The position numbers and the translations under genes are program-made. Shown piece by piece: positions 10,844 to 44,359 of a DNA stretch of 44,359 bases. This DNA comes from Bacteroidia bacterium. Lineage in GTDB: Bacteria > Bacteroidota > Bacteroidia > J057. The notes under the pieces are model-generated. The model was not told the origin of the DNA, made no database searches, and saw only the letters and a list, made by a program, of their open reading frames with translations. Location of the stretch: the NCBI GenBank assembly GCA_019695295.1, contig JAIBAH010000024.1, positions 1 to 44,359 on the forward strand. The letters are read 5' to 3'. How positions within the stretch are numbered: the first letter of the stretch is position 1; every line of letters starts with the position of its first letter.

Positions 10844-10892
10844 GTTTTTCGGGTTTCACCCGGGTTTTTTGGGGTGATATGGGTGAGATATT

Positions 10893-10970
10893 CTCTCGCA
10901 GAGGCGCAAAGGCGCTAAGCTCATTGGGTAATCTCATTATTCTTTGCGCTCCCTGCGGCTTTGCGTGAAA
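10893..10970. repeat. GCGCAAAGG-type palindromic element
   Basis: CGCAGAGGCGCAAAGGCGC on the left is imperfectly complementary to CTTTGCGCTCCCTGCGGC and TTTGCG on the right. The text resembles the GCGCAAAGG/CTTTGCG palindromes scattered between genes in many bacterial genomes. Only one copy of this exact type is in the window; the nosZ terminator at 40652-40712 has a related look. Confidence 0.45.
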
Positions 10971-11171
10971 AACAAAAAAGCCTTTGTGTGAAAAAAAATC
11001 CCTGCCTTTTCAATAATCGGGTATAAAAAAAAGACGGATAACATGGATTCATATTACCCGTCCTGAATTTACAGAAAAAAAATTTACTTACATATTATTG
11101 TAGCTCCGTTCAATAAAGGGAAAACGACAAGCCTGAGTAAGTCCATAATATTATAATGTATAGCGAATGAA

Positions 11172-14100
11172 TTATCCGTTTTTCACCCTTACTTTTCTTG
11201 CGCCGTAGTAGCTGTGTGCATTGGGATTATACATCGCCTCGGCTGTAATTGCGGGCAATTCAAATGCGCCGGTATTTACTACCCTTGTCATATAATAGAA
11301 GGATTTACTTTCCTTTGCATTTACTGTAGTAAAAATCAGCATTCTGTCGTCCCTTACATCCATATAGTCCGGACTAAAACTTCCGCCCGCTTTTTCTATC
11401 CACTGAAAATCAGCAGAGACATTCAGTCTGGGGTTTTCGATTTCAAATCCGGAAGGGATAAGGTCGGAAACTGCTACGTAAGGAACGGTTCTTTCTCCTC
11501 CGTTGAGCGTAATTTTACATACAATCAGGTCTCCCTGTCTGAATTCACTTCCCTTCAGTTCGTTCCCCTTGCGGTCATAATAAGCCCTTCTTACCTGAAA
11601 TTCCTTGTCTTCTTCCTTTATAGTAGCGTATTTTTTTATCCCTTCGGTATTCCAAGCGTAGAAAGTGCTTCCCGTTCCGGATGCCTTGAGAATAATATTT
11701 TTCCCGATTAAATCCTCTGCACTGAAAGATTCACTGGCCTTCTCAAGCGTTTTGATTTTTTTACCGTCGGCCCATATCTCCACCGATACTTTAGCGTCTT
11801 TTCTTTTACCGGCCGCTTTTCCCATCGCGAGGAAATACCATGCATTTTCCTGGGTTGAGTAGCATTCCGTTTGCTTGTCTGCCAGGAACTGAGTAAGGGT
11901 TTGCACCTTTTGATTGGAGGGGTCAACGTCCAGTAATACATTTAACATAATGGCATTGGCGCGGATTTCGGAATCAAAATTGTAAGCGTCCCTGTCTGTT
12001 CTTTCCATATCAAAACTTTTGGGCATGAGTTCATTATAAGCTCCCCAGTTTTTATTCAACGCAAAAGCCCCTGCAAGCAGATAACGGGTATCATTCGTCA
12101 GTAGTTCGGGTCTTGCTCGGTAGTAGTTCATCAGGGAGATATCCGCTTCTCCTGCAAGTGCCAAAACATAAAGTGCATAAATCGAAGCCTTGGGAGCAAT
12201 TTTCCGAATCGTACGTCCGTTGGAATTATAGGAGACATAATCCTCATCGGTTTTTTCACTGGATTCATTTTTCAAAGCCCTGAGGACGTTTTTCATGGTA
12301 TAATTATCCACTTCATATCCGTTTTTCCTTGCCTCCACGAGGAAGTGAGTAGCATAAACACTTGCCCAGCGGTTGTATTCACTCCCACCCTGCCAGTAAT
12401 TGATTTTGCCGCTGTAATCCGCCATGGACTGAATTTTCTGAATTCCTTCCTTTACATAATAACTTGTAGTGACCCCTTTGCCCAAAAGGTCGGGGGCTGC
12501 GGCCTGCGCAAGTTCTGCAAAATAGAGCTGAGGGAAAAGTTTGGAGGTAATCTGCTCAAGACATCCGTAAGGATAGCCCATGAGTTGCCGGAGGTTTTTG
12601 GTATATTTCAGGGCAGGAAAACTACTCACAGTAATTCGGGTAGTCTGAGTACCAGCTACATAATCTGAGGGAATTTTCAGGGGAAGTTCTGTCCCTGCAT
12701 TAATTTCTCCTCCTTCTGATTCGGTTACAAAAGAAGAAGCGGGTCTCACGGAGATTTCGGTTTCTTCAACAGTGGTTCCCAATCCGGAAGTTTTCAGGGT
12801 AATTTTGCCAATGCCCACATCGTCGGTGGTATTAATGCCGAAGTACAGATTTCCGCTGCCATTTGCTGCAATATCCACCGTTTGTGTTACCGCAGAAGTT
12901 ACTTTCAGCGGACCGCTCACCTCTACGGAAACATTTACTTTGCCGGCTTTACTGGTAGTGTTTGAGACATTCACCGGCATAGAAATCGAATCGCCAATCG
13001 TCAGTGTCCGGGGAATCGCAGGCATCAGCACTACTTCATCCACTACTTTCATCGGTTTATCACCTGAGCCAAACCTTGAGCCTTCGTATGCTACAGCCAT
13101 CAGCCTGATTTCTCCATTGTACTGAGGAATATCCAGTTCTACTTTTACCTCACCGTTTGCGTCTGTTTTACGAATTCCGCTCCACAAAGCCACGAGTTTG
13201 AACCTTTTTGCCTTCATCGGATTTTGCCTTTTGCCACTCATATAGTCATCTCCTCCGGCAGCAGAGGAAGCAATTTTCTGGTATTCGGGCAACAACAGGT
13301 CATATAAATCATAGCTTTCTACCGAGAGTTTTCTTTTGTCGTACATGTAGCCGTGAGGGTCAGGAGTTTTAAAGTTTTTTACCTGAAGGACTCCTTCGTC
13401 CACTGCGGCGAGGGTTACATAAATATCTTTTTTAGCTTCCGTTTTTACTGTAACGAACTGTTTGGTACGGGGTCTGACCGATTCCGGTGCGATGAGGGTT
13501 ACGGGAAGTCTGGTAGAAGGCTTTTCAACCATAACTGGCTGATAACCATGACCTACCAGCAAAGGCACATCCTGATTGGTAAGCCCGTGTGGTTTAAATA
13601 AGGTGGCGGAAATATATACATTGGGTAAATACTCCTCCCCTACCGGAATCGGAATTTCCGTAGAATTTTGAGTAACCTCCACATAAAAATGCTTCAGTAC
13701 ACTTTCTCTTTCAATCGTAACGAGCATTTTTCCGGTAAAAGGAGTGATAAACAGGGCTTTTACTGTTTCCCCCGGCTGATATTTTTCCTTGTCAAGAACG
13801 ATATCTATCTGTCCTTCCTTATCTATCTCAAAGGAAGAAGCCGACGCATTGCCGTAGCTGAAAGCATAAAAATCCTGATATACATAATCCTGTTCTCCGT
13901 CTTTATAAATCCGTAACTGATATCTTCCGGATTCTTTTACATTTACGGTAACCTCCCTGGCTGCACCGGAAACGGTAAGATTCTGTTCTGAAACCGGCAC
14001 TTCCTTTTGCTCGGATACATAGCGGAACTGACCATTATCTCCCGATTTTCTCAATACCGTCTGCCATTCATATTTCACCACTTTGGCTTTTATTTTAAAA

Positions 14101-16607
14101 TTCTGAAGTGGCTTTTCTTCTGCGTTTACTGCAATTGTCTGGAAGGTAAGGTCTTTGTTGGTTCCGAAATAATACCCGTTTGATTTAATTCCGATATAAT
14201 GCTCCTTGGGGAAAATCTTAAAACTTTCCAGGCGATTTACGGTGCGCCCGGTTACATCAAATACACTTACATAGAGTTTGCCCTCGACAATCCCCCCGGA
14301 TTTGATGTTTTCCGGAACAGAGAATGCTCCTGTCACCTTTCCATTATCATCCAGAACGCCTTCTTCAAACGTATTTTCAAAAGAGGTATTGCTATAGGAA
14401 GTGTTGGAAAAATTAAACTTTTTATACTCACGGGGCATAAAAGGAATATGATTCAGCACTACATCGGTTTGATATTTATGGCCTTTTGCCGGCTCTCCGA
14501 ACAGGTATTCAGCACTGATTGTATAGCCGACTTCCCCTCCGGCTTCTCCGGTTTCGTCACAATCTACGGTTGCCCGGATTTTGTCAGGAGCAAATTCTTC
14601 GATATTAAACCGGTAAGACTGAATGAATTTTCCGTTTGCAGAAGAAAGTTCTGCTGTATAAGGACCGGTACCGGCAAATTCAGGTGTTTCGATATCGAGT
14701 TCAAAAGAGCCCTGCTCATTGAGTGTTTTCTGAAATTCATGAAACACTTTTCCTACGGGCGTAATTACCTTCACCTGAACCGGAAGGTCTTTGACAATCC
14801 CAAATTGATTATTTCTGACGATACCGGAAAGATGAATGGTTTCTCCAGGGCGGTAGATATTCCTGTCGGCATAGAGAAAAGCATCAAAATCATCGGTTCC
14901 TACGTATTTTCCTCCTACTTCATAGCGGGAAGTACCTACTTCGGAAGCCTGCATATCCAGGTAATTGAAGTCATCGCCCAGGGAAGCATACAGCAGTCTC
15001 GGGCTGAAATCCATGGGTTCCTTGTAGAGATTTTCGACTTTGGCGATTCCCTGTGCGTCGGTAGTAACGGTGCTCAGGGTCTGATTATTGGCGGATACAA
15101 TCTGAACGGTCACATTGGGCAGTGCCTGTGTGGTTTTGATAGAGTTGGCAAAAACAAGAAGGTCATTTCCGGACTTTTTAGCAATCAATCCTATATCAGA
15201 AAAAGAGATGATTTTGGCATCCCGAACATAATAATCCTCATCTGAACGGACAGATACCACATAAATCCCCCTGAAACGCTGATTGACGGCTTTGTGAAGA
15301 TTGATGGTAGCATACTGAAAGGTGTTTTTATTTTCGGCAAACCGGATTTCTTCGGTGTAAATTTCTTTTCCGTAATCACCTACGGAATATTCTGATGGCT
15401 CTTCGTCACCATAACTGTTATCATAGCGGTAGCGGTCATAGTTGTAATTATTATTAAAGAAAAACAGCATATTATTCTGAAATACTTCTTCTACCGTTAC
15501 TTCTACTTCTTTGAGATTTACCGTTTCAAATTTCAGGTTCTCCTCCCCTCCTCTCATAAGATAAATTCCCTGCTTATCCGAAAAACGCAAAAGAGGTTTT
15601 ACATCACTTGCGGTAAGATATTCGGTAAAAGCATTTTCCAGCACTCCTCCGTATAAGCCGGGAAGCCCTTTTTCGACAGAAAGTTTTACTTCATTGGGCA
15701 TTGGAGCTTTTCCTTTGATAATTATATGTTCTGACTCAACTTCTATGGACTGACTGTTGAGGGCCGGAGTAACGGTAATATATTTTGAAGCTTTTTTCGC
15801 GTCAATTTCCTGAGTAGTAGTTACTGTAATCGTGTAATAATCCTCATCCATACTTGCCACCGCTTCAGTGATTGCTACTCTTTGAATCGGGGGAAGATTT
15901 ACAGAAAAACTTCTGTCCTCTTTCAGGGGAGTTTTATTAAGGGTGGAATTGAGGCCTTTTTTTACAACGATTTCAAACTTTTGTTCTTCTTTGGTTTGGG
16001 CAATTCTCCCGAAATCAATCGCAATTACGTCCGAGGGTTTGTCGGTCATGAGAGTATATCCGGTAATTTCTTTTTTGTTTTGCATTACTTTCAGATGGCT
16101 TCTGAGTGCCTCCGGATCAACCTTGTAGTTAAAATAAACATTTCCCTGTACGCTGAGCTTGTACTCTTCATTTTTGATGGGAGTGTAAAAAATATCTGTT
16201 TTAATCACGGTAAAATCCGGCGTTTTAAAGGTTACGGTATTGAAACGGGTTTTTAAGTCCTGATTGCCAGACTCCGCCACAATTTCCGATTTATTAAAAG
16301 AGGCTTTGTAATCCTGTCCGCTTTTGAGGGGTTGAGCGGGAGAAAAAACGAGGGTATTCGGAGAAGTCCACTTATACTTACCGGATATTGCAGGCTGAAA
16401 AGAAAGATAGTTTGCATCTATCCATTTATCTAATTTGTCTTTGGATACCACGTCCTTATTAAAGGTCACGGCAAATGTCTGAAAGTTATCCACTTCGCCT
16501 GTGGGCGTAAATTTGGTTACCCTGAGTACATTCGTATTACAGGAAAATAGCAAAAATGCCAGTAAAACGAAAAAGGAAGTTAAGTTTAAAATTTGTCGCA
16601 TAGTCAT
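11172..16607 (-). CDS. Alpha-2-macroglobulin family lipoprotein with thioester
   Basis: This is a very large (1811-residue) bacterial alpha-2-macroglobulin of the YfhM/MagD class; such proteins trap attacking proteases at the cell envelope. The start at 16607 or 16601 gives a lipoprotein signal (SFFVLLAFLLFSC), so the protein should be lipid-anchored. The open frame continues 90 codons further up but those encode a structured, non-conserved leader. Family blocks include IDIETPEFAGTGPYTAEL, the macroglobulin hinge DRNIYRPGETIHLSGIVRN, LAAVDEGVLQV, and the thioester motif GYPYGCLEQ, with Cys at residue 1349 and Gln at 1352. Downstream comes the thioester helical domain, then a C-terminal receptor-like domain. 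No partner penicillin-binding protein (pbpC) is adjacent, unlike in enterobacteria. Confidence 0.93.
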   Translation of the reverse strand: MTMRQILNLTSFFVLLAFLLFSCNTNVLRVTKFTPTGEVDNFQTFAVTFNKDVVSKDKLDKWIDANYLSFQPAISGKYKWTSPNTLVFSPAQPLKSGQDYKASFNKSEIVAESGNQDLKTRFNTVTFKTPDFTVIKTDIFYTPIKNEEYKLSVQGNVYFNYKVDPEALRSHLKVMQNKKEITGYTLMTDKPSDVIAIDFGRIAQTKEEQKFEIVVKKGLNSTLNKTPLKEDRSFSVNLPPIQRVAITEAVASMDEDYYTITVTTTQEIDAKKASKYITVTPALNSQSIEVESEHIIIKGKAPMPNEVKLSVEKGLPGLYGGVLENAFTEYLTASDVKPLLRFSDKQGIYLMRGGEENLKFETVNLKEVEVTVEEVFQNNMLFFFNNNYNYDRYRYDNSYGDEEPSEYSVGDYGKEIYTEEIRFAENKNTFQYATINLHKAVNQRFRGIYVVSVRSDEDYYVRDAKIISFSDIGLIAKKSGNDLLVFANSIKTTQALPNVTVQIVSANNQTLSTVTTDAQGIAKVENLYKEPMDFSPRLLYASLGDDFNYLDMQASEVGTSRYEVGGKYVGTDDFDAFLYADRNIYRPGETIHLSGIVRNNQFGIVKDLPVQVKVITPVGKVFHEFQKTLNEQGSFELDIETPEFAGTGPYTAELSSANGKFIQSYRFNIEEFAPDKIRATVDCDETGEAGGEVGYTISAEYLFGEPAKGHKYQTDVVLNHIPFMPREYKKFNFSNTSYSNTSFENTFEEGVLDDNGKVTGAFSVPENIKSGGIVEGKLYVSVFDVTGRTVNRLESFKIFPKEHYIGIKSNGYYFGTNKDLTFQTIAVNAEEKPLQNFKIKAKVVKYEWQTVLRKSGDNGQFRYVSEQKEVPVSEQNLTVSGAAREVTVNVKESGRYQLRIYKDGEQDYVYQDFYAFSYGNASASSFEIDKEGQIDIVLDKEKYQPGETVKALFITPFTGKMLVTIERESVLKHFYVEVTQNSTEIPIPVGEEYLPNVYISATLFKPHGLTNQDVPLLVGHGYQPVMVEKPSTRLPVTLIAPESVRPRTKQFVTVKTEAKKDIYVTLAAVDEGVLQVKNFKTPDPHGYMYDKRKLSVESYDLYDLLLPEYQKIASSAAGGDDYMSGKRQNPMKAKRFKLVALWSGIRKTDANGEVKVELDIPQYNGEIRLMAVAYEGSRFGSGDKPMKVVDEVVLMPAIPRTLTIGDSISMPVNVSNTTSKAGKVNVSVEVSGPLKVTSAVTQTVDIAANGSGNLYFGINTTDDVGIGKITLKTSGLGTTVEETEISVRPASSFVTESEGGEINAGTELPLKIPSDYVAGTQTTRITVSSFPALKYTKNLRQLMGYPYGCLEQITSKLFPQLYFAELAQAAAPDLLGKGVTTSYYVKEGIQKIQSMADYSGKINYWQGGSEYNRWASVYATHFLVEARKNGYEVDNYTMKNVLRALKNESSEKTDEDYVSYNSNGRTIRKIAPKASIYALYVLALAGEADISLMNYYRARPELLTNDTRYLLAGAFALNKNWGAYNELMPKSFDMERTDRDAYNFDSEIRANAIMLNVLLDVDPSNQKVQTLTQFLADKQTECYSTQENAWYFLAMGKAAGKRKDAKVSVEIWADGKKIKTLEKASESFSAEDLIGKNIILKASGTGSTFYAWNTEGIKKYATIKEEDKEFQVRRAYYDRKGNELKGSEFRQGDLIVCKITLNGGERTVPYVAVSDLIPSGFEIENPRLNVSADFQWIEKAGGSFSPDYMDVRDDRMLIFTTVNAKESKSFYYMTRVVNTGAFELPAITAEAMYNPNAHSYYGARKVRVKNG

Positions 16608-17104
16608 TGAAATTTGAATAAAAAAAAGGAAAAACAGATCATTGGAGAATCTAAAAAAGGAGAAAACTTCTTTTGCTTCCATTAGGAATGGCTTCAAAAT
16701 AAATTGTTCAATTTCACTTGTCCCGCTTTGCGGGTTCCTTTCGTATAAGCCAATTCTGTTAATTGTCTTATACTCAGGAATGCCCCCAAACTGCGTTGGA
16801 TTTTCGTTACAATACACTGCATTGCGCCTCAAATCCGCCTTGTTTTGGAACAAAATCCTGGGCGAAATTCTTTGCAATTTATTTCTGCGTCATTCCTTAT
16901 AAAAACGCTCAATAATCCGGTATAAAGTTACCGTTTTTTTGGTTACCAAAAATAGTATCTGCATTATTTTTACAGGAATCCGTTGCTTTTTTGGAGTTTA
17001 TTCTACTTCCTCTTTCATAGATGCCTTTATTTTTTTTGCTTTTTTCTGAAACAAAACAGGTTAACTATCGTTTATTGACAGTAATACTATTAAAATCGTG
17101 AGTA
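16608..17104 (-). other. Structured gene-free region, probable long leader of the alpha-2-macroglobulin gene
   Basis: There is no credible gene. Several consecutive hairpins are visible: CCCGC-TTT-GCGGG at 16722-16734; a 12-bp stem with one mismatch at 16743-16773 (GTATAAG with CTTATAC, CAATT with AATTG, 5-nt loop); and smaller stems around 16793-16806, 16809-16830 and 16848-16864. The only good minus-strand -7 element is at 16947-16954, which would make these hairpins part of a leader of about 335 nt. An alternative is that they belong to a dispersed repeat. Confidence 0.4.
16947..16954 (-). promoter_or_regulatory. Candidate -7 element for the alpha-2-macroglobulin gene
   Basis: TATTTTTG on the minus strand matches TAnnTTTG. 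No better match was found between here and the start codon, so a long leader is implied. Confidence 0.3.
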
Positions 17105-19542: not shown

Positions 19543-21015
19543 ATGTTAAACATCAGCTCAAACTCCATAAACAACCGGTTAGTCACTACAAAATACTCTG
19601 CTTTTTCATTGAATAAAGAGTATAAAGCGGCCCGGATTCTGGCTTTCCTGCTTTTTATCGCTCTTGCAGGATTCATTACTTTTCTGTTTCTCCCCTGGAC
19701 TCAGAATATACAAACCAAAGGCTATCTGACCTCTCTGAGGCCGGATCAGCGTCCGCAAACACTGAACTCTGTCATTGCCGGAAAAATCGAAAAGTGGTAT
19801 GTCAGAGAAGGAGACCTGATCAAAAAGGGAGATACAATCTTGTACATTTCCGAGATAAAAGACGATTATTTTGACCCTCAATTATTGGACAGAACCCAAA
19901 AGCAAATCAACGCCAAGGAACTCTCTGTGGGTTCTTATCTTGAGAAAGCAAAAGCATTGGAGGGGCAAATTGTGGCAATGGAGAAAACCCGTATTCTGAA
20001 GCTGGATCAGGCTAAAAACTATACCAAACAGGCCAGACTAAAGGTTATGTCGGACAGTACAGAATTACAGGCGGCTGTTATTAACTTCGAGGTGGCAGAA
20101 GAACAGTACAAAAGGATGGAGGAAATGTATAAAGACGGATTAAGACCTCTTACTGACCTGGAGGCGAGACGGCTGAAATTACAGGAAACCCTAGCAAAGC
20201 GAATCAGTCAGGAAAATAAATTGCTGGCGAGTCGAAATGAACTCATCAATGCGCAGATAGAGTTGGGTTCCCTGGAAAATCAGTTTCAGGACAAAATTTC
20301 CAAGGCAGAGTCTGAAAAATTTGCGACACTTTCCGGAATGTATGACTCCGAAGCCGCGGTTACCAAAATGCAAAATCAGTATATGAATTACTCAGTCAGG
20401 ACAGGATTATATTATGTAATGGCTCCTCAGGACGGGTATATCACCAAAGCGTATAAAACCGGTATCGGAGAAATCTTTAAGGAAGGGGAGCCGCTCCTGA
20501 GTATTATGCCCGCCAACTATGAAATAGCTGCGGAGCTATACATTGACCCGGTGGATTTACCTTTGGTTCATATGGGCACACACGTCCGCTTACTCTTTGA
20601 CGGATGGCCTGCAATTGTTTTTTCGGGATGGCCTAACTCTTCATTTGGAACCTACGGCGGAAAAGTAGTGGCAATTGACAATGTAATCAGCAACAATAAT
20701 AAATACCGGGTACTGGTGGTTCCGGATAAACAACGGGTTCGCCTCCCTCAATTTCTGCAATGGATGACCGACAGCGGAGAGGAAGAGGATAAAGAGTGGC
20801 CCGGAGCGTTAAGGCCCGGAGCCGGGGTAAAAGGATTTGCATTGCTCAAAGACGTGAAATTAGGATACGAACTCTGGCGACAACTGAACGGATTCCCGCC
20901 TGAGTTTTATGAGGATAAACCCGTTGATAACCCGAAAGGGAAAAGCGAAAAATCCGAAAAGGAAGCCAAAGAAGATGAGGTTAAGCAAAAACCCGCACTC
21001 AAGTCATTTAAATAA
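19543..21015 (+). CDS. HlyD-family membrane fusion (periplasmic adaptor) protein
   Basis: The 490-residue protein has one N-terminal transmembrane helix (ILAFLLFIALAGFITFLFLPW, about 32-52). It then has a lipoyl or barrel-sandwich half (VIAGKIEKWYVREGDLIKKGDTILYI), a long alpha-helical hairpin (about 115-270), and the returning half (YYVMAPQDGYITKAYKTGIGEIFKEGEPLLSI) and beta-barrel. Such proteins bridge an inner-membrane ABC exporter to a TolC channel. The C-terminal tail is highly charged (Lys/Glu-rich). It lies 26 bp after the ABC gene and 18 bp before the TolC gene, so all are one transcript. Confidence 0.92.
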   Translation: MLNISSNSINNRLVTTKYSAFSLNKEYKAARILAFLLFIALAGFITFLFLPWTQNIQTKGYLTSLRPDQRPQTLNSVIAGKIEKWYVREGDLIKKGDTILYISEIKDDYFDPQLLDRTQKQINAKELSVGSYLEKAKALEGQIVAMEKTRILKLDQAKNYTKQARLKVMSDSTELQAAVINFEVAEEQYKRMEEMYKDGLRPLTDLEARRLKLQETLAKRISQENKLLASRNELINAQIELGSLENQFQDKISKAESEKFATLSGMYDSEAAVTKMQNQYMNYSVRTGLYYVMAPQDGYITKAYKTGIGEIFKEGEPLLSIMPANYEIAAELYIDPVDLPLVHMGTHVRLLFDGWPAIVFSGWPNSSFGTYGGKVVAIDNVISNNNKYRVLVVPDKQRVRLPQFLQWMTDSGEEEDKEWPGALRPGAGVKGFALLKDVKLGYELWRQLNGFPPEFYEDKPVDNPKGKSEKSEKEAKEDEVKQKPALKSFK

Positions 21016-21033
21016 TAAACTTACTCTGTTTTC

Positions 21034-22431
21034 ATGTATAAACATTATCGTTTTCTCTTCGTATTTCTTCTGTTTTCGGTCAGTGTGTCCGGGCAGGTTA
21101 CCCTGACTCAGGAAGACTTATTCGCTATTATACGGAAATATCATCCGGTTGCAAAACAGGCTGCTTTATTGAAGGAAAGGGGAAATCAGGAAATTCTGAA
21201 ATCCAAAGGAAACTTTGACCCTTACGTTTACTCTGACCTTGATCAGAAATACTTTAGCGGGAAGCAGTACTATGATTTATTTGATATCGGGATGAAAGTC
21301 CCTACCTGGTACGGACCGGATATTAAGCTGGGTTATGACAGAAATGCAGGCCTTCTGTTGAATCCCGAAAATTCTACTCCCGGCGCGGGGCTTGTGTTTG
21401 CCGGGGTTTCCGCTCCGATTCTTCAGGGATTAATGATTGACAAAAGAAGAACTGCTGTAATGCAGGCAAAATTATTTGCACAATCAACGGAAACTGAGCA
21501 GCTCCGGATTCTCAATAATTTGTTTTATGAAGCCGCTCAGTCTTACTGGCAATGGGTTGCCTACGGAAATCAGGTGCAGATTTATGAAGATGCACTTGAG
21601 CTTGCTTCGAGAAGATATCAAATGACAAAGGAAAGTTTCCGGCTGGGTGACAGGGCTGCAATTGATACCACAGAAGCTTACCTTCAGGTACAGGACAGGC
21701 AATTCAACCTGAGTCAGGTGGAGTTATTGTACCAAAATGCAGGACTGGAACTTTCAGGATTTTTATGGGGAGAGAATGAAACACCCATGGAAATTACTGA
21801 CAAATTATCTCCCGTTATGCTGGACAGTATTTCGTCTTTTAATCTCATAGATCAGGAAAATATTGACCGCTCCATTGAAAATCTCTCCCTTGCTCACCCG
21901 GATTTGAGAATGTATGATTTCAAACTGAAAGATCTGGGACTGGAACAAAGATGGAAACGGGAAAAGTTAAAGCCCAAGCTCAATCTGGAGTATAATTTTT
22001 TATCCTATTCCAATCAAAATCCCCTGTATCGTTTTCCCACTCAATATAAATGGGGAATTGATTTTTCGATGCCTATTCTGTTGAGGGAAGCCAAAGGAGA
22101 TTTAGCCCTGACTCAAATCAAAATTCAGGAAACTCAGTATGCCGTCAATCAAAAAAGACTGGAAATCTCCAATAAAATCAAAGCCTATTACAATGAACAG
22201 CAAACCCTGAAAAGTCAGCTTTCTCTCTATGAAGGAATGCTGAAAAATTACCAGCGACTGCTTACCGGAGAACAAACCCGGTTTAATCTCGGAGAAAGTT
22301 CTTTATTCCTGATTAATGCACGGGAAACAAGTCTTATTTCTGCTCAGATTAAATTCATTGATATTCAATCCAAACTGCTCAAAAATAAAGCCGCAATTCA
22401 GTGGGCGCAGGGAGAACTGGGTAGTCTGTAA
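21034..22431 (+). CDS. TolC-family outer membrane efflux protein
   Basis: The 465-residue protein begins with a signal peptide (YRFLFVFLLFSVSVSGQ) and then LTQEDLFAIIRKYHPVAKQA, the usual start of a TolC repeat. It has two structural repeats rich in coiled coil (about 140-250 and 330-465). TolC trimers form the outer membrane channel of type I export. It ends the four-gene operon TetR-ABC-HlyD-TolC. Confidence 0.92.
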   Translation: MYKHYRFLFVFLLFSVSVSGQVTLTQEDLFAIIRKYHPVAKQAALLKERGNQEILKSKGNFDPYVYSDLDQKYFSGKQYYDLFDIGMKVPTWYGPDIKLGYDRNAGLLLNPENSTPGAGLVFAGVSAPILQGLMIDKRRTAVMQAKLFAQSTETEQLRILNNLFYEAAQSYWQWVAYGNQVQIYEDALELASRRYQMTKESFRLGDRAAIDTTEAYLQVQDRQFNLSQVELLYQNAGLELSGFLWGENETPMEITDKLSPVMLDSISSFNLIDQENIDRSIENLSLAHPDLRMYDFKLKDLGLEQRWKREKLKPKLNLEYNFLSYSNQNPLYRFPTQYKWGIDFSMPILLREAKGDLALTQIKIQETQYAVNQKRLEISNKIKAYYNEQQTLKSQLSLYEGMLKNYQRLLTGEQTRFNLGESSLFLINARETSLISAQIKFIDIQSKLLKNKAAIQWAQGELGSL

Positions 22432-22467
22432 GACTATTTCAGGGGTTCATAAAAGCAATGGATTTGC

Positions 22468-22515
22468 GAACAGAGGCTACCTGCATTCGGCAATGATAGT
22501 ACTATCACTCTGTTC
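22468..22515. repeat. Inverted repeat between convergent genes
   Basis: GAACAGAG (22468-22475) pairs with CTCTGTTC (22508-22515), and the loop holds the perfect palindrome GATAGTACTATC (22495-22506). No T-run follows, so it is not a typical terminator. It could fold in RNA from either strand. Confidence 0.4.
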
Positions 22516-22551
22516 ATGCTAATCTATAAGCCCCCGGGAATTCCCAAAATC

Positions 22552-24420
22552 CTATTTCACCTTCAGCACCCATTTTCCCGTAGCGGTTTTATCCGAAAGG
22601 ATTGTCATGAAATAATTTCCTGATGGGAGATTTTCTGAATCTATCCGGATTGCATGGAGTCCTTTTTCTCTTCTTCCTACTGCGATAGTTTTGAGGATAT
22701 TCCCATTGATATCCGAAATTTGAATCTGAATATCCGCTGCTTTCTGAATATGATATTCTACCACAAAATTTGTAGTAAAGGGATTGGGATAGCTTGCGAG
22801 CATGGCTATATTTTCTGCTTCAGAGGGTTGAATATCCGTAACGATTTCAAAGCCTGGTGCAAGTGGTGCCTGAATCTGATTGACAATCGAAGAAGGCACA
22901 CTCGGACCGTTGGCCTGACGCAGGAAACGTTCTGCATCATTCACATACCACCCTTCGCCGAAAATGTTCGTATAGGCGGTATCCGTTGTGGAGGACACAT
23001 AGTGCCAGTCGCCCTGAGTACGTTCGCGGTTTACATCCAGAATCACATAACCATGCTGACTTAAATCTGCATATTTAATATGATTATTTGCCGCCTGAAT
23101 AACCCCTAAAGGAAAACTGATGGGTGAGTTCGTTGAAGTGATACTTGTAGTTACATACTCCACCCCCACCGAATGCTCACCGGAAGTCGGCTCATAGTTA
23201 CTATTATAAGGTAGGTCATTTGCCCAGGAAGAGTGAATATCTCCGGTCAGCACCACGAAGTTTTCGATATTATTATTCCTTACATAATCCCATATCCTGG
23301 TTCTCTCAGCTGGATAGCCGTCCCATTGATCCTGATTTACCGGAAAACCAAAAACCTCCAGAGGTGCCATCATTACCTGCTGACCGATAAGGTTCCACTG
23401 AGCAGTGCTCGTAATCAGATCATTTTTAAACCATTGCAACTGAGGATTTCCCAGCAGCGTCCGGGAGGTATCATTATTCGTTGAGGAAGACTGCTCGTTT
23501 CTGCCATAATGCCGGCTGTCCAGCATAGTAAGACGTACCAAATCCCCGTAATCAAAAGAACGATAAATTTTCAGCGTATCTCCCGGGTCCGGAAGACGGA
23601 GAGGCATCCATTCAGCGTAGGCTTTGGTAGCAGCATACCGCCGGTCGTCCCAGTCACCCTCAGTAGCGGGGTCATGATTTTCGGCTCCGCCCGTCCAGGC
23701 GTCATTCGCAATCTCATGGTCATCCCATACACATATAAAAGGATACTGCTGATGAGCATATCTTAAATCAGGGTCTAATTTATACTGAGAATGCCGCATT
23801 CTGTAATCCATGAGGTTGAGAATTTCATAATTCGGGCTGTGAGTCCTGTCGGCAGAAAAAGGAGTACCTCCACCTTCATAGATATAATCTCCCAGATGTA
23901 AAACCGCGTCCACATCATTGCGTTTGGCGATGCTTTCATAAGCGTGATAATATCCCGCATCAAAACTGGAGCAGGAAACCACAGCAAAACGAAGTGTATC
24001 TACATCGGCTCCAACCGGTAAAGTTTTCGTTCTTCCCGTAATAGATTTTACTCCCAGCGCTTCAAAACGGTAATAGTAATACGTATTGGGTTGAAGGCCA
24101 ATGGCATCAACGTGTACCGTATAATCCTTTGAGTCTCCGGTAGTAGTATTACCCGTAAGCACACTCTGAGTAAAGCCGGTATCCAGTGCCACTTCCCAGG
24201 TAACCGCCACAGTGCCAAAAACGGTACTATCCGGTGTAACCCTCGTCCAGAGAATCACCCTGTCAGTAAGCGGGTCTCCGGAGGCAACCCCATGATAAAA
24301 CGGCTTGAGTGCCGGATTGATAAAAATCCGGTCGGGTGACAAAGGCCCGGACATCGTCTGAGCGGAAAGCAGAGAAAAGAACAGATTAAAAATGACTCCT
24401 GCGAATACAATTTTCTTCAT
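22552..24420 (-). CDS. PhoD-like phosphoesterase with type IX sorting domain
   Basis: PhoD enzymes are metal-dependent phosphomonoesterases or phosphodiesterases that release phosphate outside the cell. The 622-residue protein has a signal peptide (FAGVIFNLFFSLLSAQ), an N-terminal fibronectin-like PhoD domain (FYHGVASGDPLTDRVILWTRVTP), and a metallophosphatase core with DAVLHLGDYIYE, CVWDDHEIANDAW and VVLTGDIHSSW metal-ligand motifs. It ends in a type IX secretion domain (ASYPNPFTTNFVVEY, IQISDINGNILKTI, LPSGNYFMTI, WVLKVK). It is predicted to be exported through the outer membrane. Convergent with the export operon. A -7 element lies at 24474-24481. Confidence 0.93.
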   Translation of the reverse strand: MKKIVFAGVIFNLFFSLLSAQTMSGPLSPDRIFINPALKPFYHGVASGDPLTDRVILWTRVTPDSTVFGTVAVTWEVALDTGFTQSVLTGNTTTGDSKDYTVHVDAIGLQPNTYYYYRFEALGVKSITGRTKTLPVGADVDTLRFAVVSCSSFDAGYYHAYESIAKRNDVDAVLHLGDYIYEGGGTPFSADRTHSPNYEILNLMDYRMRHSQYKLDPDLRYAHQQYPFICVWDDHEIANDAWTGGAENHDPATEGDWDDRRYAATKAYAEWMPLRLPDPGDTLKIYRSFDYGDLVRLTMLDSRHYGRNEQSSSTNNDTSRTLLGNPQLQWFKNDLITSTAQWNLIGQQVMMAPLEVFGFPVNQDQWDGYPAERTRIWDYVRNNNIENFVVLTGDIHSSWANDLPYNSNYEPTSGEHSVGVEYVTTSITSTNSPISFPLGVIQAANNHIKYADLSQHGYVILDVNRERTQGDWHYVSSTTDTAYTNIFGEGWYVNDAERFLRQANGPSVPSSIVNQIQAPLAPGFEIVTDIQPSEAENIAMLASYPNPFTTNFVVEYHIQKAADIQIQISDINGNILKTIAVGRREKGLHAIRIDSENLPSGNYFMTILSDKTATGKWVLKVK

Positions 24421-28226: not shown

Positions 28227-28269
28227 TTTGTGTAGAAAATTTTACAAATTGTAAAATTTTCTACACAAA
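28227..28269. repeat. 43-bp near-perfect palindrome
   Basis: The arms 28227-28247 and 28249-28269 are exact 21-bp inverted copies around a single A. Each arm contains the self-complementary AAAATTTT. It is AT-rich with no following T-run, so it is not a typical terminator. The next plus-strand -7 element is 26 bp downstream (28295-28302), so an operator for the aminotransferase gene is possible; a cruciform or an end-of-element mark are other options. Confidence 0.85.
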
Positions 28270-38621: not shown

Positions 38622-40628
38622 ATGTTAAAGAAAAATCATTTTATAATCGCACTTTTGGCAGTAGTTTTATTATCAGGCTTTTCTGCCTGTAAACCCAAGA
38701 ACGCAGGGTCTGCTGTCACCTCCGGTGCTGCCGAAAAAGCGTATGTAGCACCCGGCAAATACGATGAGTTCTATAATTTCGTTTCCGGAGGCTTCAGCGG
38801 ACAAATGGCAGTATATGGCTTACCTTCCGGTCGCTTGCTAAGGGTAATTCCGGTTTTTTCTGTGGATCCTGAGAAAGGATGGGGGTACAGTGAAGAAACC
38901 AAGCCCATGCTCAATACTTCTCATGGTTTTGTACCATGGGATGATTTACATCACCCCGAACTTTCCCAAACGAATGGAGAAATTGATGGTAGATGGCTAT
39001 TTGGAAATGGAAATAACACTCCCAGGGTAGCAAGAATCAATCTTAAAACCTTCCGTACAGATGAAATTCTTGAGCTGCCTAACAGCGGTGGGAATCACTC
39101 CTCTCCTTTTGCTACTGAAAATACAGAATATATCGTGGCAGGAACCCGTTTCAGCGTACCGCCCGATAATTCTAACGGAGATGTTCCGATTAATACCTAT
39201 AAACAAAATTTCAAAGGACATATCAGTTTTATCAGTGTGGACAAAACCGATGGTAAAATGGATATTGCTTTCCAATTAAAATTACCAGGAGTAAATTTTG
39301 ACCTTGCAAGATCCGGAAAACTAAAGTCTCATGGTTGGTTTTTCTTCTCCTGCTACAATAGTGAGCAAGCCAATACCTTGCTTGAGGTAAATGCTTCCCA
39401 AAAAGACAAGGATTTCATCCTTGCAGTAAACTGGAAAAAAGCAGAAGAATATCTCAAAGCCGGTAAAGGTCAGAAAGTAGCTGTAAAATATGCGAGCAAC
39501 CGCTATGATGAAAAAACACACACTGCAACTTCTACCATTAAAAATGAAGTAACTGTTCTTGACGCATCAGTATTAAAGGACATCTGCTATTTTATTCCCT
39601 GTCCTAAATCGCCTCATGGTTGCGATGTGGACCCAACAGGAGAATATATCGTAGGAAGTGGTAAACTCGCAGCATTGATTCCCGTTTTCAGTTTTGATAA
39701 ATTACAGTCTGCTATTGCAAAAAAAGACTTTATCGGAGACTACGATGGGATTCCAATCGTAAAATACGAATCCGCACTGTACGGGGAAGTACAAAAACCG
39801 GGATTGGGTCCTCTGCACACCGAATTTGACGGAAAAGGAAATGCTTATACCTCTTTCTTTGTATCCTCAGAAGTGGTAAAATGGAATATTAAAGACCTCA
39901 AGGTTCTTGACCGTGCTTCTACTTACTATTCTGTCGGACACTTGTGTGTTCCGGGAGGAAACAGCCGTAAACCCAATGCGAAATACCTTATTGCATATAA
40001 TAAAATTACCAAAGACCGCTATCTCCCAACAGGTCCTGAGTTGGCTCAAAGTGCACAACTATTTGATATCTCCGGTGATAAAATGCAACTGATATTGGAC
40101 TTCCCCACAATTGGCGAGCCTCACTATGCTCAGGCAGTTGCGGCAGATGTAATCAAAGGAAATTCTACCAAAATATTTAAAATAGAAGAAAATGCAAATC
40201 CTTATGTAGCCAAAGGAGAAGGCGAAAGCAAAGTGGTAAGAGAAGGAAATAAAGTACATATATATATGACCTCTATCCGTTCTCACTTCTCCCCAGACAA
40301 TATCGAAGGGGTCAAAATGGGGGATGAGGTATATTTCCATATCACTAACCTTGAACAAGATTGGGATGTGCCTCATGGTTTTGCAGTAAAAGGGGCATTA
40401 AATGCGGAATTACTGATTATGCCCGGCGAAACAAGTACACTAAAATGGGTGCCAGACAGAGTAGGGATTTTCCCGATTTATTGTACAGACTTCTGTAGTG
40501 CACTCCATCAGGAAATGCAAGGATACGTAAGAGTATCTCCGTCAGGAAGTAATATTCCGCTGACATTCAGTACCGGAACAAACAAGCCGGCTGAATCTCC
40601 AGAGGCATCAGCAGCCCCTAAAAAATAA
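38622..40628 (+). CDS. nosZ: Nitrous oxide reductase, clade II, lipoprotein type
   Basis: NosZ reduces N2O to N2, the last step of denitrification, and is the only known biological sink of N2O. The 668-residue protein has a Sec lipoprotein-type signal (HFIIALLAVVLLSGFSAC, Cys23) rather than the Tat signal of clade I. CuZ-site histidines fall in DDLHHPELS, SPHGCDVDPTG, GLGPLHTEFDG, SVGHLCVPGG and EPHYAQAV. The C-terminal cupredoxin domain has the CuA set: His585 (VPHGFAV), Cys621, Cys625, His629 and Met632 in YCTDFCSALHQEM. The copper centres need NosL and NosDFY, which follow. A strong hairpin terminator lies between nosZ and nosL (40652-40712). Confidence 0.98.
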   Translation: MLKKNHFIIALLAVVLLSGFSACKPKNAGSAVTSGAAEKAYVAPGKYDEFYNFVSGGFSGQMAVYGLPSGRLLRVIPVFSVDPEKGWGYSEETKPMLNTSHGFVPWDDLHHPELSQTNGEIDGRWLFGNGNNTPRVARINLKTFRTDEILELPNSGGNHSSPFATENTEYIVAGTRFSVPPDNSNGDVPINTYKQNFKGHISFISVDKTDGKMDIAFQLKLPGVNFDLARSGKLKSHGWFFFSCYNSEQANTLLEVNASQKDKDFILAVNWKKAEEYLKAGKGQKVAVKYASNRYDEKTHTATSTIKNEVTVLDASVLKDICYFIPCPKSPHGCDVDPTGEYIVGSGKLAALIPVFSFDKLQSAIAKKDFIGDYDGIPIVKYESALYGEVQKPGLGPLHTEFDGKGNAYTSFFVSSEVVKWNIKDLKVLDRASTYYSVGHLCVPGGNSRKPNAKYLIAYNKITKDRYLPTGPELAQSAQLFDISGDKMQLILDFPTIGEPHYAQAVAADVIKGNSTKIFKIEENANPYVAKGEGESKVVREGNKVHIYMTSIRSHFSPDNIEGVKMGDEVYFHITNLEQDWDVPHGFAVKGALNAELLIMPGETSTLKWVPDRVGIFPIYCTDFCSALHQEMQGYVRVSPSGSNIPLTFSTGTNKPAESPEASAAPKK

Positions 40629-40781: not shown

Positions 40782-41795
40782 ATGAAAGAAAAACTGTCTC
40801 AACCCTCTCGTATTCTTCTTTTTATCAGTGGAATACTGATGATTATTGCTATATTTGTTCCGCTTTGGAGGATTGATATGTCGGCTCCTCAATACCCAGA
40901 AGGGCTCAGACTTCTGATATACCCGAATAAAATAGCAGGAGATATCGATATCATCAATGGTCTTAATCACTACATCGGAATGAAAACCATTCATTACGAA
41001 GAATTTATTGAATTCAAAATTCTCCCTTATTTAATCGGTTTTTTCGGACTTTTGTTTTTTATTTGTGGGTATCTGGCGAACAGAAAACTCCTTTTTGGTT
41101 CGTTAATTCTCTTTATCTTATTTGGTATCGGTTCGATGGTTGATTTCTGGATGTGGGAATATGACTATGGTCACAACCTCAGCCCTGATGCGGCTATTAT
41201 TGTACCCGGTATGGCGTATCAGCCACCGCTGATTGGCTTTAAACAATTGTTGAACTTCGGAGCCTTTTCCATTCCGGATATGGGGGGCTGGATTTTTGTA
41301 GGAGTGGGTTTTTTGCTGATTATTGCTGTTTTTATAGAAATTAGAGCCGGAAAATCAGCTAAAAATAGCACTGTAGTGATTGCTGCTTTCTTTATGTTCA
41401 TACAGCTTAGTGCTTGTCAAAATGGTCCGATACCTATTAATGTTGGAAAAGATGCTTGTTCTTTTTGTAAAATGACCATCAGTGATAATAAATTTGGAGC
41501 GGAACTAATCACCGATAAAGGGAAAATCTATAAATTCGATGAATATCACTGCTTACACGCATTTATAATATCGGGTACTTTAACCCAAGCTCAAATAAAA
41601 GAAGTCTATATTTCTGATTATTTTCCTCCAAATCAGCTAATCAATGTAAAACAAGCCTTTTTTATTCAAAGCGAAAAAATCCACGGTCCTATGAATGGAA
41701 ACGTCGCTGTATTCTCTACTGAAACAGGACTAAAAAAAGGACAGGAGCTATACGGAGGTAGTACTTTAACATGGAAGGATTTATCCGGTCAATGA
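40782..41795 (+). CDS. nosL: NosB-like membrane domain fused to copper chaperone NosL
   Basis: The 337-residue protein joins two parts. Residues 1-200 have about four transmembrane helices and a periplasmic loop with APQYPEGLRLLIY and INGLNHYIGMK. Position next to nosZ and size fit NosB, the membrane protein of clade II clusters. Residues 212-337 are NosL, which delivers Cu(I) to NosZ, with the copper motif DACSFCKM and KFGAELIT. The join contains a hydrophobic stretch and an intact lipobox (IQLSAC, Cys212), as if a nosL lipoprotein signal had been kept in the fusion. The start at 40782 is preferred over a TTG seven codons up, which overlaps the -7 element. It overlaps nosD by ATGA. Confidence 0.88.
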   Translation: MKEKLSQPSRILLFISGILMIIAIFVPLWRIDMSAPQYPEGLRLLIYPNKIAGDIDIINGLNHYIGMKTIHYEEFIEFKILPYLIGFFGLLFFICGYLANRKLLFGSLILFILFGIGSMVDFWMWEYDYGHNLSPDAAIIVPGMAYQPPLIGFKQLLNFGAFSIPDMGGWIFVGVGFLLIIAVFIEIRAGKSAKNSTVVIAAFFMFIQLSACQNGPIPINVGKDACSFCKMTISDNKFGAELITDKGKIYKFDEYHCLHAFIISGTLTQAQIKEVYISDYFPPNQLINVKQAFFIQSEKIHGPMNGNVAVFSTETGLKKGQELYGGSTLTWKDLSGQ

Positions 41796-43030
41796 GAATA
41801 CAAATTATCATATTCATCCTGTTGATTTCTCTGAGAATACCCGTATTTTCAGGTACGGTTTCCGTTTTCCATGAAAGCGGCCCTTCTTCTATTATCTCTG
41901 CAATCGAAAAAGCAAGCCCCTTTGATACGATTCTGATTCATGAAGGAATCTATAAGGAAAAAAATATCATTATCAATAAACCCCTGACAATTATTGGTGT
42001 AAATCATCCTGTAATGGACGGAGAAGGAAAATACGAAATTCTAACCCTTAAATCAGATTCTGTTACGGTTATGGGGCTAACAATAAGGAATTCCGCCAAC
42101 TCAAGTATTGAAGAGTATTCCGGGATAAAAATATATAATGCAAATCATATTCTGATATCGGACAATATCATGGAAGATTGTTTTTTTGGCATTTATCTGT
42201 ACTATTGTCATAACGTGATGATTAAACATAATTCAATCATCGCACATCAGACTCAGGAGCAGCAAAGCGGAAACGGCATCCATTGCTGGAAAAGTGATAC
42301 TCTTCAGATTATTGCCAATACAATTCATGGCCACAGGGACGGAATCTATTTTGAATTTGTGACAGAATCCGTAATCTGGCGAAATACGTCTGCAGATAAT
42401 CTCCGGTACGGCCTGCATTTTATGTTTTCACATAACGATACATATATCGGGAATATCTTCCGTAATAACGGAGCCGGGGTTTCTGTAATGTACACAAAAG
42501 GAGTCCGTATGTTTAATAATTTTTTTGAGGAAAACTGGGGAGATGCTTCCCATGGACTATTGCTGAAAGACATATCTGACAGCTATATTTCCGGCAATAA
42601 TTTTATCAAAAATACAAACGGAATTTATATGGAAGGAGCAAGCCGGATAGAAATGGAAAAAAATATTTTCCGGAATAACGGATGGGCATTCAAGATTCAG
42701 GCAAGTTGTATGGATATAAAGGTAATGCACAATAATTTTTTAGGGAATTCTTTTGATATCGGTACAAACGGAAGCCTTATGCTCAATCATTTTTCAGAAA
42801 ACTACTGGGATAAATACGAAGGATATGACCTTAATAAAGATCAAACCGGAGATGTACCCTATCGTCCGGTAAGCCTTTACTCTATGATTGTGGAGATTAA
42901 CCCTCCGGCGATGATTCTCTTCAGGAGCCTGATTGTATCTCTTATGGACAAATCCGAAAAGGTAATCCCAAGCATCACTCCGGAAAATCTGATAGACGAA
43001 AAACCATTAATGAAACAACTGGCTTTATGA
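41792..43030 (+). CDS. nosD: NosD, periplasmic copper-site maturation protein
   Basis: NosD is an exported right-handed beta-helix protein that works with the NosFY ABC transporter to build the CuZ copper-sulfur centre of NosZ. The 412-residue protein starts at 41792 (MRIQIIIFILLISLRIPVFS signal), overlapping the nosL stop; an in-frame ATG lies at 41771. Parallel beta-helix repeats of about 22-25 residues run through it: SVTVMGLTIRNS, HILISDNIMEDC, NVMIKHNSII, LQIIANTIHGH, SVIWRNTSADN, DTYIGNIFRNNGAG, DSYISGNNFIKNTNG. The tail (FSENYWDKYEGYDLNKDQTGDVPYRP) is the NosD C-terminal signature. It overlaps nosF by ATGA. Confidence 0.95.
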   Translation: MRIQIIIFILLISLRIPVFSGTVSVFHESGPSSIISAIEKASPFDTILIHEGIYKEKNIIINKPLTIIGVNHPVMDGEGKYEILTLKSDSVTVMGLTIRNSANSSIEEYSGIKIYNANHILISDNIMEDCFFGIYLYYCHNVMIKHNSIIAHQTQEQQSGNGIHCWKSDTLQIIANTIHGHRDGIYFEFVTESVIWRNTSADNLRYGLHFMFSHNDTYIGNIFRNNGAGVSVMYTKGVRMFNNFFEENWGDASHGLLLKDISDSYISGNNFIKNTNGIYMEGASRIEMEKNIFRNNGWAFKIQASCMDIKVMHNNFLGNSFDIGTNGSLMLNHFSENYWDKYEGYDLNKDQTGDVPYRPVSLYSMIVEINPPAMILFRSLIVSLMDKSEKVIPSITPENLIDEKPLMKQLAL

Positions 43031-43737
43031 TTGAAATACAAAATCTCACCAAAAAATTCGGAAAGGTAACAGCTCTTGATGATGTAACCCTAAATTGAGA
43101 AAGAGCCGAGTGTATCGCTTTAATAGGAGCAAACGGAAGCGGGAAGACTACCCTGATTAAATCCGTACTGGGAATGGTCATTCCTGATTCCGGTAAGGTT
43201 TTGTTCAACGGAAAACCAGTGGACCCCAAAGGCCAGTATCGCAGAATTATTGGCTATATGCCTCAAATTGGACGATATCCTGACAATATGAGTATCGGGC
43301 AGGTTATCGGCATGATGAAAGATATAAGGGTAGATAAAACAGAGTGGGATGAAGAACTTGTGACTGCTTTTGGAGTTGATCAGATAATGGATAAAAGAAT
43401 GCATACACTTTCCGGCGGGACAAGACAAAAGGTAAGTGCGATACTTGCTTTTTTGTTTAATCCGGCAGTTCTTATTTTGGATGAGCCTACTGCTGGGCTT
43501 GACCCACTGGCTTCTGAAATTCTCAGGGAAAAAATCATAAAAGAAAACAAAAAAGGGAAACTGATATTTATTACCTCCCATATTTTGAGCGACTTAAATG
43601 ATTTGATAACACATGTAATCTATATGAATGAAGGAAAGCTGCTCTTCAAGAAGTCTCTCCCGAATCTTCAGAAAGAAACCGGAGAAGAAAAACTCTCAAG
43701 GGCTGTTTCCTCTATAATGAAAGAACTGGAATTATGA
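43027..43737 (+). pseudogene. nosF: nosF ABC ATPase with in-frame TGA at codon 24
   Basis: NosF is the ATPase of the NosFY transporter that supplies sulfur for the NosZ CuZ centre. The frame runs 236 codons from the ATG overlapping nosD to the stop overlapping nosY. All ABC motifs are present: Walker A GANGSGKTT, Q-loop GYMPQIG, signature LSGGTRQKVSAIL, Walker B VLILDEPTAGLDP, switch His in ITSH. However, the codon at 43096-43098 is TGA (VTLN-stop-ERAECIALIG). No ATG, GTG or TTG lies between it and Walker A; the next ATG, 43174, would drop Walker A. TTA to TGA is one base change and Leu would fit the helix. Possible readings are a fresh nonsense mutation, a sequencing error or readthrough. 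Confidence 0.85.
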
Positions 43738-44359
43738 AAAAAATATTAAAGTATGTCGTTTCAGATATAATCAGGAGTAAAATTATTCTTGCTTATACTG
43801 TTTTGCTGTTGGTGCTATCCTTGAGTATTTTCAGTCTGGAAGACAACACCTCAAAAGGATTACTCAGCTTACTGAACCTGATTTTGATTATTCTTCCACT
43901 GGTGAGCCTCGTTTTCTCTACTATTTATTGCTATAATTCCATTGAATTTATAGAGCTGTTACTGAGTCAGCCTATCAGGAGGTTTACTATCTGGATGAGT
44001 TTATTTTCAGGGCTTGCATTCTCTCTTTCTTCTGCCTTTTTGATTGGAGCAGGCATTCCCATTCTTATTTTTGAATTCACTCCCACAGGGGTTATTATGG
44101 TTATAACCGGTTTATTTCTCTCTGTCATATTTGTTGCCATGGCTATGTTATCCGTAGCTTCTACAAAAGATAAAGCCAAAGGAATTGGGGTATCGGTTTT
44201 ATTATGGTTATTTTTCTCACTGATGTATGACGGACTTGTGCTTTTTCTGCTTTTTCAGTTTTCTGATTACCCGCTGGAGAAGTTCATGGTTTTTCTAAGT
44301 TGCCTTAATCCTATAGACCTGGGCAGGATTCTCATCCTTTTGAAAATGGATATATCAGA
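43734..44359 (+). CDS. nosY: NosY, ABC permease subunit (cut by window end)
   Basis: The reading frame starts at an ATG overlapping the nosF stop and is open for 208 codons to the end of the window, so the C-terminus is missing. It begins MKKILKYVVSDIIRSKIILAYTVLLLVLSLSIF and has about five hydrophobic segments by the cut, among them SLLNLILIILPLVSLVFSTIY and GVIMVITGLFLSVIFVAMAML. ELLLSQPIRR after the second helix is the coupling region seen in NosY. NosY is the membrane part of the NosFY transporter that works with NosD on NosZ maturation. Confidence 0.92.
   Translation, partial: MKKILKYVVSDIIRSKIILAYTVLLLVLSLSIFSLEDNTSKGLLSLLNLILIILPLVSLVFSTIYCYNSIEFIELLLSQPIRRFTIWMSLFSGLAFSLSSAFLIGAGIPILIFEFTPTGVIMVITGLFLSVIFVAMAMLSVASTKDKAKGIGVSVLLWLFFSLMYDGLVLFLLFQFSDYPLEKFMVFLSCLNPIDLGRILILLKMDIS

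Follow-up and report, generated by a model that had tools for sequence, protein, structure and literature searches.

The in-frame stop codon that interrupts nosF close to the end of the analysed DNA most likely reflects strain variation or an assembly error and does not indicate lost nitrous oxide reduction, and an uninterrupted version of the same gene opens another contig of the same assembly. The analysed stretch, hereafter the window, has a length of 44,359 nucleotides and is contig C31 in its full length, one of the 223 contigs of a 4.90-Mb assembly with estimated contamination of 0.09%. The stop codon lies approximately 1.3 kb from the contig end.

The nos cluster of the window and its interrupted nosF

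The following features of the nos locus were registered in the window:
38622-40628, + strand: nosZ, nitrous oxide reductase of the Sec-dependent type, intact, single copy in the genome
40761-41795, + strand: nosL-type gene, its C-terminal part matching the Pfam NosL domain
41771-43030, + strand: nosD, intact, the sole complete copy in the genome
43027-43737, + strand: nosF frame, encoding the ABC ATPase of NosDFY and interrupted at codon 24 alone
43096-43098, + strand: in-frame TGA at nosF codon 24, where the copy on contig C220 has TGT (Cys)
43734-44359, + strand: nosY, truncated at the end of C31, full length at C220:826-1593

Thus, nosF occupies the place between nosD and nosY in a cluster with nosZ, and the order nosZ-nosL-nosD-nosF-nosY is shared with the known NosDFY ABC transporter system that participates in nitrous oxide reductase maturation. 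The difference from NosF of this system is the TGA at codon 24, which the C220 copy does not have. Frames of nosZ, nosL, nosD and the available part of nosY are all open. The nosF frame begins with the ATG at 43027, which overlaps the nosD stop (ATGA), and terminates at 43735-43737, overlapping nosY by another intact ATGA at 43734. All motifs of an ABC ATPase are legible in it: Walker A (GANGSGKT), LSGG and Walker B with DEPTAGLDP. Since the TGA precedes Walker A, the window copy has no uninterrupted ATPase frame that includes this motif, while the C220 copy does. No ATG, GTG or TTG was found in the nosF frame among the codons from the TGA to Walker A; the first later start codon, ATG at 43174, is already downstream of this motif. 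TGA terminates 5 of the 28 main open reading frames in the window and is therefore a normal stop here. In all these respects the preceding sequence-only reading, which had described a frame unbroken but for codon 24, undamaged overlaps with both neighbours, no restart codon ahead of Walker A and ordinary usage of TGA as a stop, was borne out.

Other parts of the contig contain a gene for a 1901-aa bacterial alpha-2-macroglobulin-type protein with Pfam bMG and A2M domains (11172-16877, − strand) and several repeats. An intergenic imperfect inverted repeat at 10864-10998, CTCGCAGAGGCGCAAAGGCGCTAAG ... CTTTGCGCTCCCTGCGGCTTTGCGTGAAAAA, has about 20 relatives of 69-94% identity in other contigs of the genome and is a member of a dispersed palindromic repeat family. 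The 5′ end of the contig (1-290) is a repeat common to contig C5 (228 bases with 1 mismatch), and a tandem repeat of 54-55 bases lies within it at 44-158. A near-perfect palindrome of 43 bases, matching its own reverse complement by 98%, was found between two open reading frames at 28227-28269.

An intact nosF at the beginning of contig C220

A second copy of nosF, the presence of which the sequence-only reading had proposed to check, does exist. A protein search of the assembly with NosF revealed it at the very start of C220, where it is uninterrupted and encodes a protein of 92% identity, with TGT (Cys) as codon 24. Comparison of the two contigs defined two further features of the window:
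42909-44358, + strand: end of C31 overlapping the start of C220 (1-1450), gapless, 91% identity, a stretch present in two haplotypes
43579-43768, + strand: 190 bases without any difference between the haplotypes, from the end of nosF into the start of nosY, a longer run than in any of 5000 codon shuffles

The 1450 bases differ at 131 positions with zero gaps. C31 stops within nosY at the end of the shared stretch and C220 starts within nosD at its beginning, so that only the tail of nosD, about 120 bases, is present on C220. Further downstream C220 carries the remainder of nosY, then a globin-like gene and then a gene with a fasciclin domain (fas1). The gene after nosY, for which no Pfam match was found, we take to be globin-like from its relation to the counterpart in relative L012 and from our own reading of its sequence.

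The search of the genome with the window was performed with two 20-kb pieces, positions 20001-24399 lying between them. For the final 20 kb, C220:1-1450 was the only match in the rest of the genome, and beyond base 1450 of C220 no duplicate of the nosY end, of the globin or of the fas1 gene was found elsewhere in the genome. Thus, a second, independently flanked locus, as expected for a paralogous pseudogene, was not registered; instead, the flanks of C31 are complementary to those of C220. In L012 the gene order is nosL-nosD-nosF-nosY-globin-fas1, and C31 followed by C220 reproduces it across the mismatched overlap; in relatives L009, L024 and L025 it is nosD-nosF-nosY-fas1. Because there is a single nosZ, a single complete nosD and this order of genes in relatives, C31 and C220 most likely follow each other within a single nos locus.

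Based on these data one can assume that a single locus nosZ-nosL-nosD-nosF-nosY-globin-fas1 was divided by the assembler into C31 and C220. The shared 1450 bases would then hold two haplotypes about 9% apart, with C31 ending in one of them, which bears the TGA, and C220 opening with the other, in which nosF is intact and has Cys at this codon. The TGA itself may be a nonsense mutation carried by one strain of a mixed population, or else a wrong base close to the contig end, where support is poor. We consider this explanation as a whole highly probable. It implies that the assembly represents a population, of metagenome type, with strain variation, and that the two versions of nosF are alleles of different strains; we infer both from the comparison of contigs. 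The sequence-only reading had named a mixed source, an error of the consensus and another nosF copy as candidates; the intact nosF on C220 shifts the preference to a seam between mixed haplotypes.

Overlaps of this kind are familiar from population and metagenome assemblies, where two contigs likewise meet in diverged versions and synteny is restored on joining. Two other junctions of the same assembly can be compared with it. The end of C204 and the start of C32 also dovetail, by 142 bases with 2 mismatches, and an open frame of 866 codons runs across the join; ends of C211 and C25 share exactly 127 bases, which fits graph assembly with k=127. The C31/C220 overlap, with its 1450 bases and 9% divergence, nevertheless exceeds the other dovetails of the sample both in length and in divergence: among 81 sampled contig-end stretches there was no other overlap as large, just short mismatched dovetails and repeats. 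This absence, the low contamination estimate and the 190-base identical run count against the seam.

Codon 24 in relatives and divergence of the two haplotypes

In the nearest relatives codon 24 encodes Cys (TGC in Ilyomonas limi L023 and in congener L013, TGT in L012), which is the usual residue sought by comparison with close NosF proteins. The TTA-to-TGA origin suggested earlier found no support. Since close relatives and C220 have TGT or TGC, the informative base is at 43098, the third of the codon, and not at 43097, and the likely change is from TGT or TGC to TGA. Among 26 relatives the position is taken by F, C, L or I and is a plain, variable hydrophobic one. At codon 27 the window has GCC (Ala), whereas C220 and 22 of the 26 relatives have Gly; Ala occurs in two relatives.

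Differences between the haplotypes fall mostly on silent sites: dS is 0.37 and dN 0.039 for nosF, 0.40 and 0.026 for the available part of nosY. Apart from codon 24, the window nosF, with dN/dS of about 0.10, bears the mark of purifying selection, and the differences are of the kind that separates two functional alleles. As they are mainly silent, the window copy has been under selection for a long time, and the TGA, if real, is recent; by these substitution patterns it is either recent or an error. The 190-base identical run was not matched in any of 5000 codon shuffles, and so the stretch is a mosaic that arose either through recombination or through incorrect phasing during assembly.

An interior stop in nosF is unusual against the base rate of the class. 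A NosF-like match (E<=1e-60) was found in 75 of 295 sampled genomes, and none of the 74 others has an interior stop, leaving the window copy as the only case. G085, considered as a second example, was rejected, since the TGA there is the natural stop. In congener L259 (G002:C292) homology of nosF stops near residue 169, and the remaining 150 or so bases of the contig are AT-rich and unrelated, which is an insertion or an assembly chimera.

Alternative explanations

One genome might contain two diverged nosF-nosY stretches, of which the window copy would be decaying as a pseudogene and the C220 copy would be functional. Both versions do occur in a single assembly of low estimated contamination, and the identical run could be a trace of gene conversion between them inside a single genome as well as of a wrongly phased path. 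The genome, however, has no second complete nosD, nosY end, globin or fas1; the duplication would have to start within nosD and stop within nosY exactly at two contig ends, and the window copy shows no decay beyond codon 24. We regard such a duplication as improbable.

Even less probable is that the dominant strain is truly nosF-null, retaining nosZ whose CuZ centre is not matured, and that C220:1-1450 comes from a minor relative. The TGA allele is indeed on the contig with the genome's single nosZ and single complete nosD, and nosDFY has been described as essential for CuZ maturation on the basis of a P. stutzeri nosD insertion mutant (PMC7660919). But either haplotype could be the dominant one, selective constraint on the window nosF and the open frames of nosZ, nosL, nosD and the available part of nosY speak against this reading, and interior stops are absent from the 74 other NosF-bearing genomes.

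Decoding of TGA as an amino acid, by selenocysteine insertion, a suppressor tRNA or readthrough, has a negligible probability. A TGA aligned with Cys codons of the nearest relatives is what a selenocysteine site usually looks like, but neither SelB (TIGR00475) nor tRNA-Sec (RF01852) gave a match above cut-off in the genome. No tRNA with anticodon TCA, as a suppressor would have, is present among the typed tRNAs (two weak tRNA-like matches, C132:14811-14913 and C222:2952-3071, have no ARAGORN tRNA call), the 50-base segment that begins at the TGA folds about as well as shuffled sequence (z −0.09), offering no SECIS-like stem-loop, the codon falls on a variable position, and the other haplotype of the same assembly has TGT. 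Selenocysteine at codon 24 was therefore rejected.

Implications for nitrous oxide reduction

Most probably, then, the two contigs meet at a seam between strain variants. The sequence-only reading had envisaged a nosZ-bearing strain unable to mature NosZ and emitting N2O. This did not find support: because the same assembly has an intact nosF where synteny predicts it, the organism cannot be said to have lost N2O reduction. A stop codon near a contig end needs comparison with the other contigs of the assembly before any claim of lost function is made. It is rather unlikely, though less so than the alternatives above, that the population mixes a nosZ-bearing strain newly made nosF-null by a nonsense mutation with a co-occurring intact relative, the two differing in N2O reduction. 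If the TGA is a real allele at appreciable frequency, the presence of nosZ would not predict N2O reduction.
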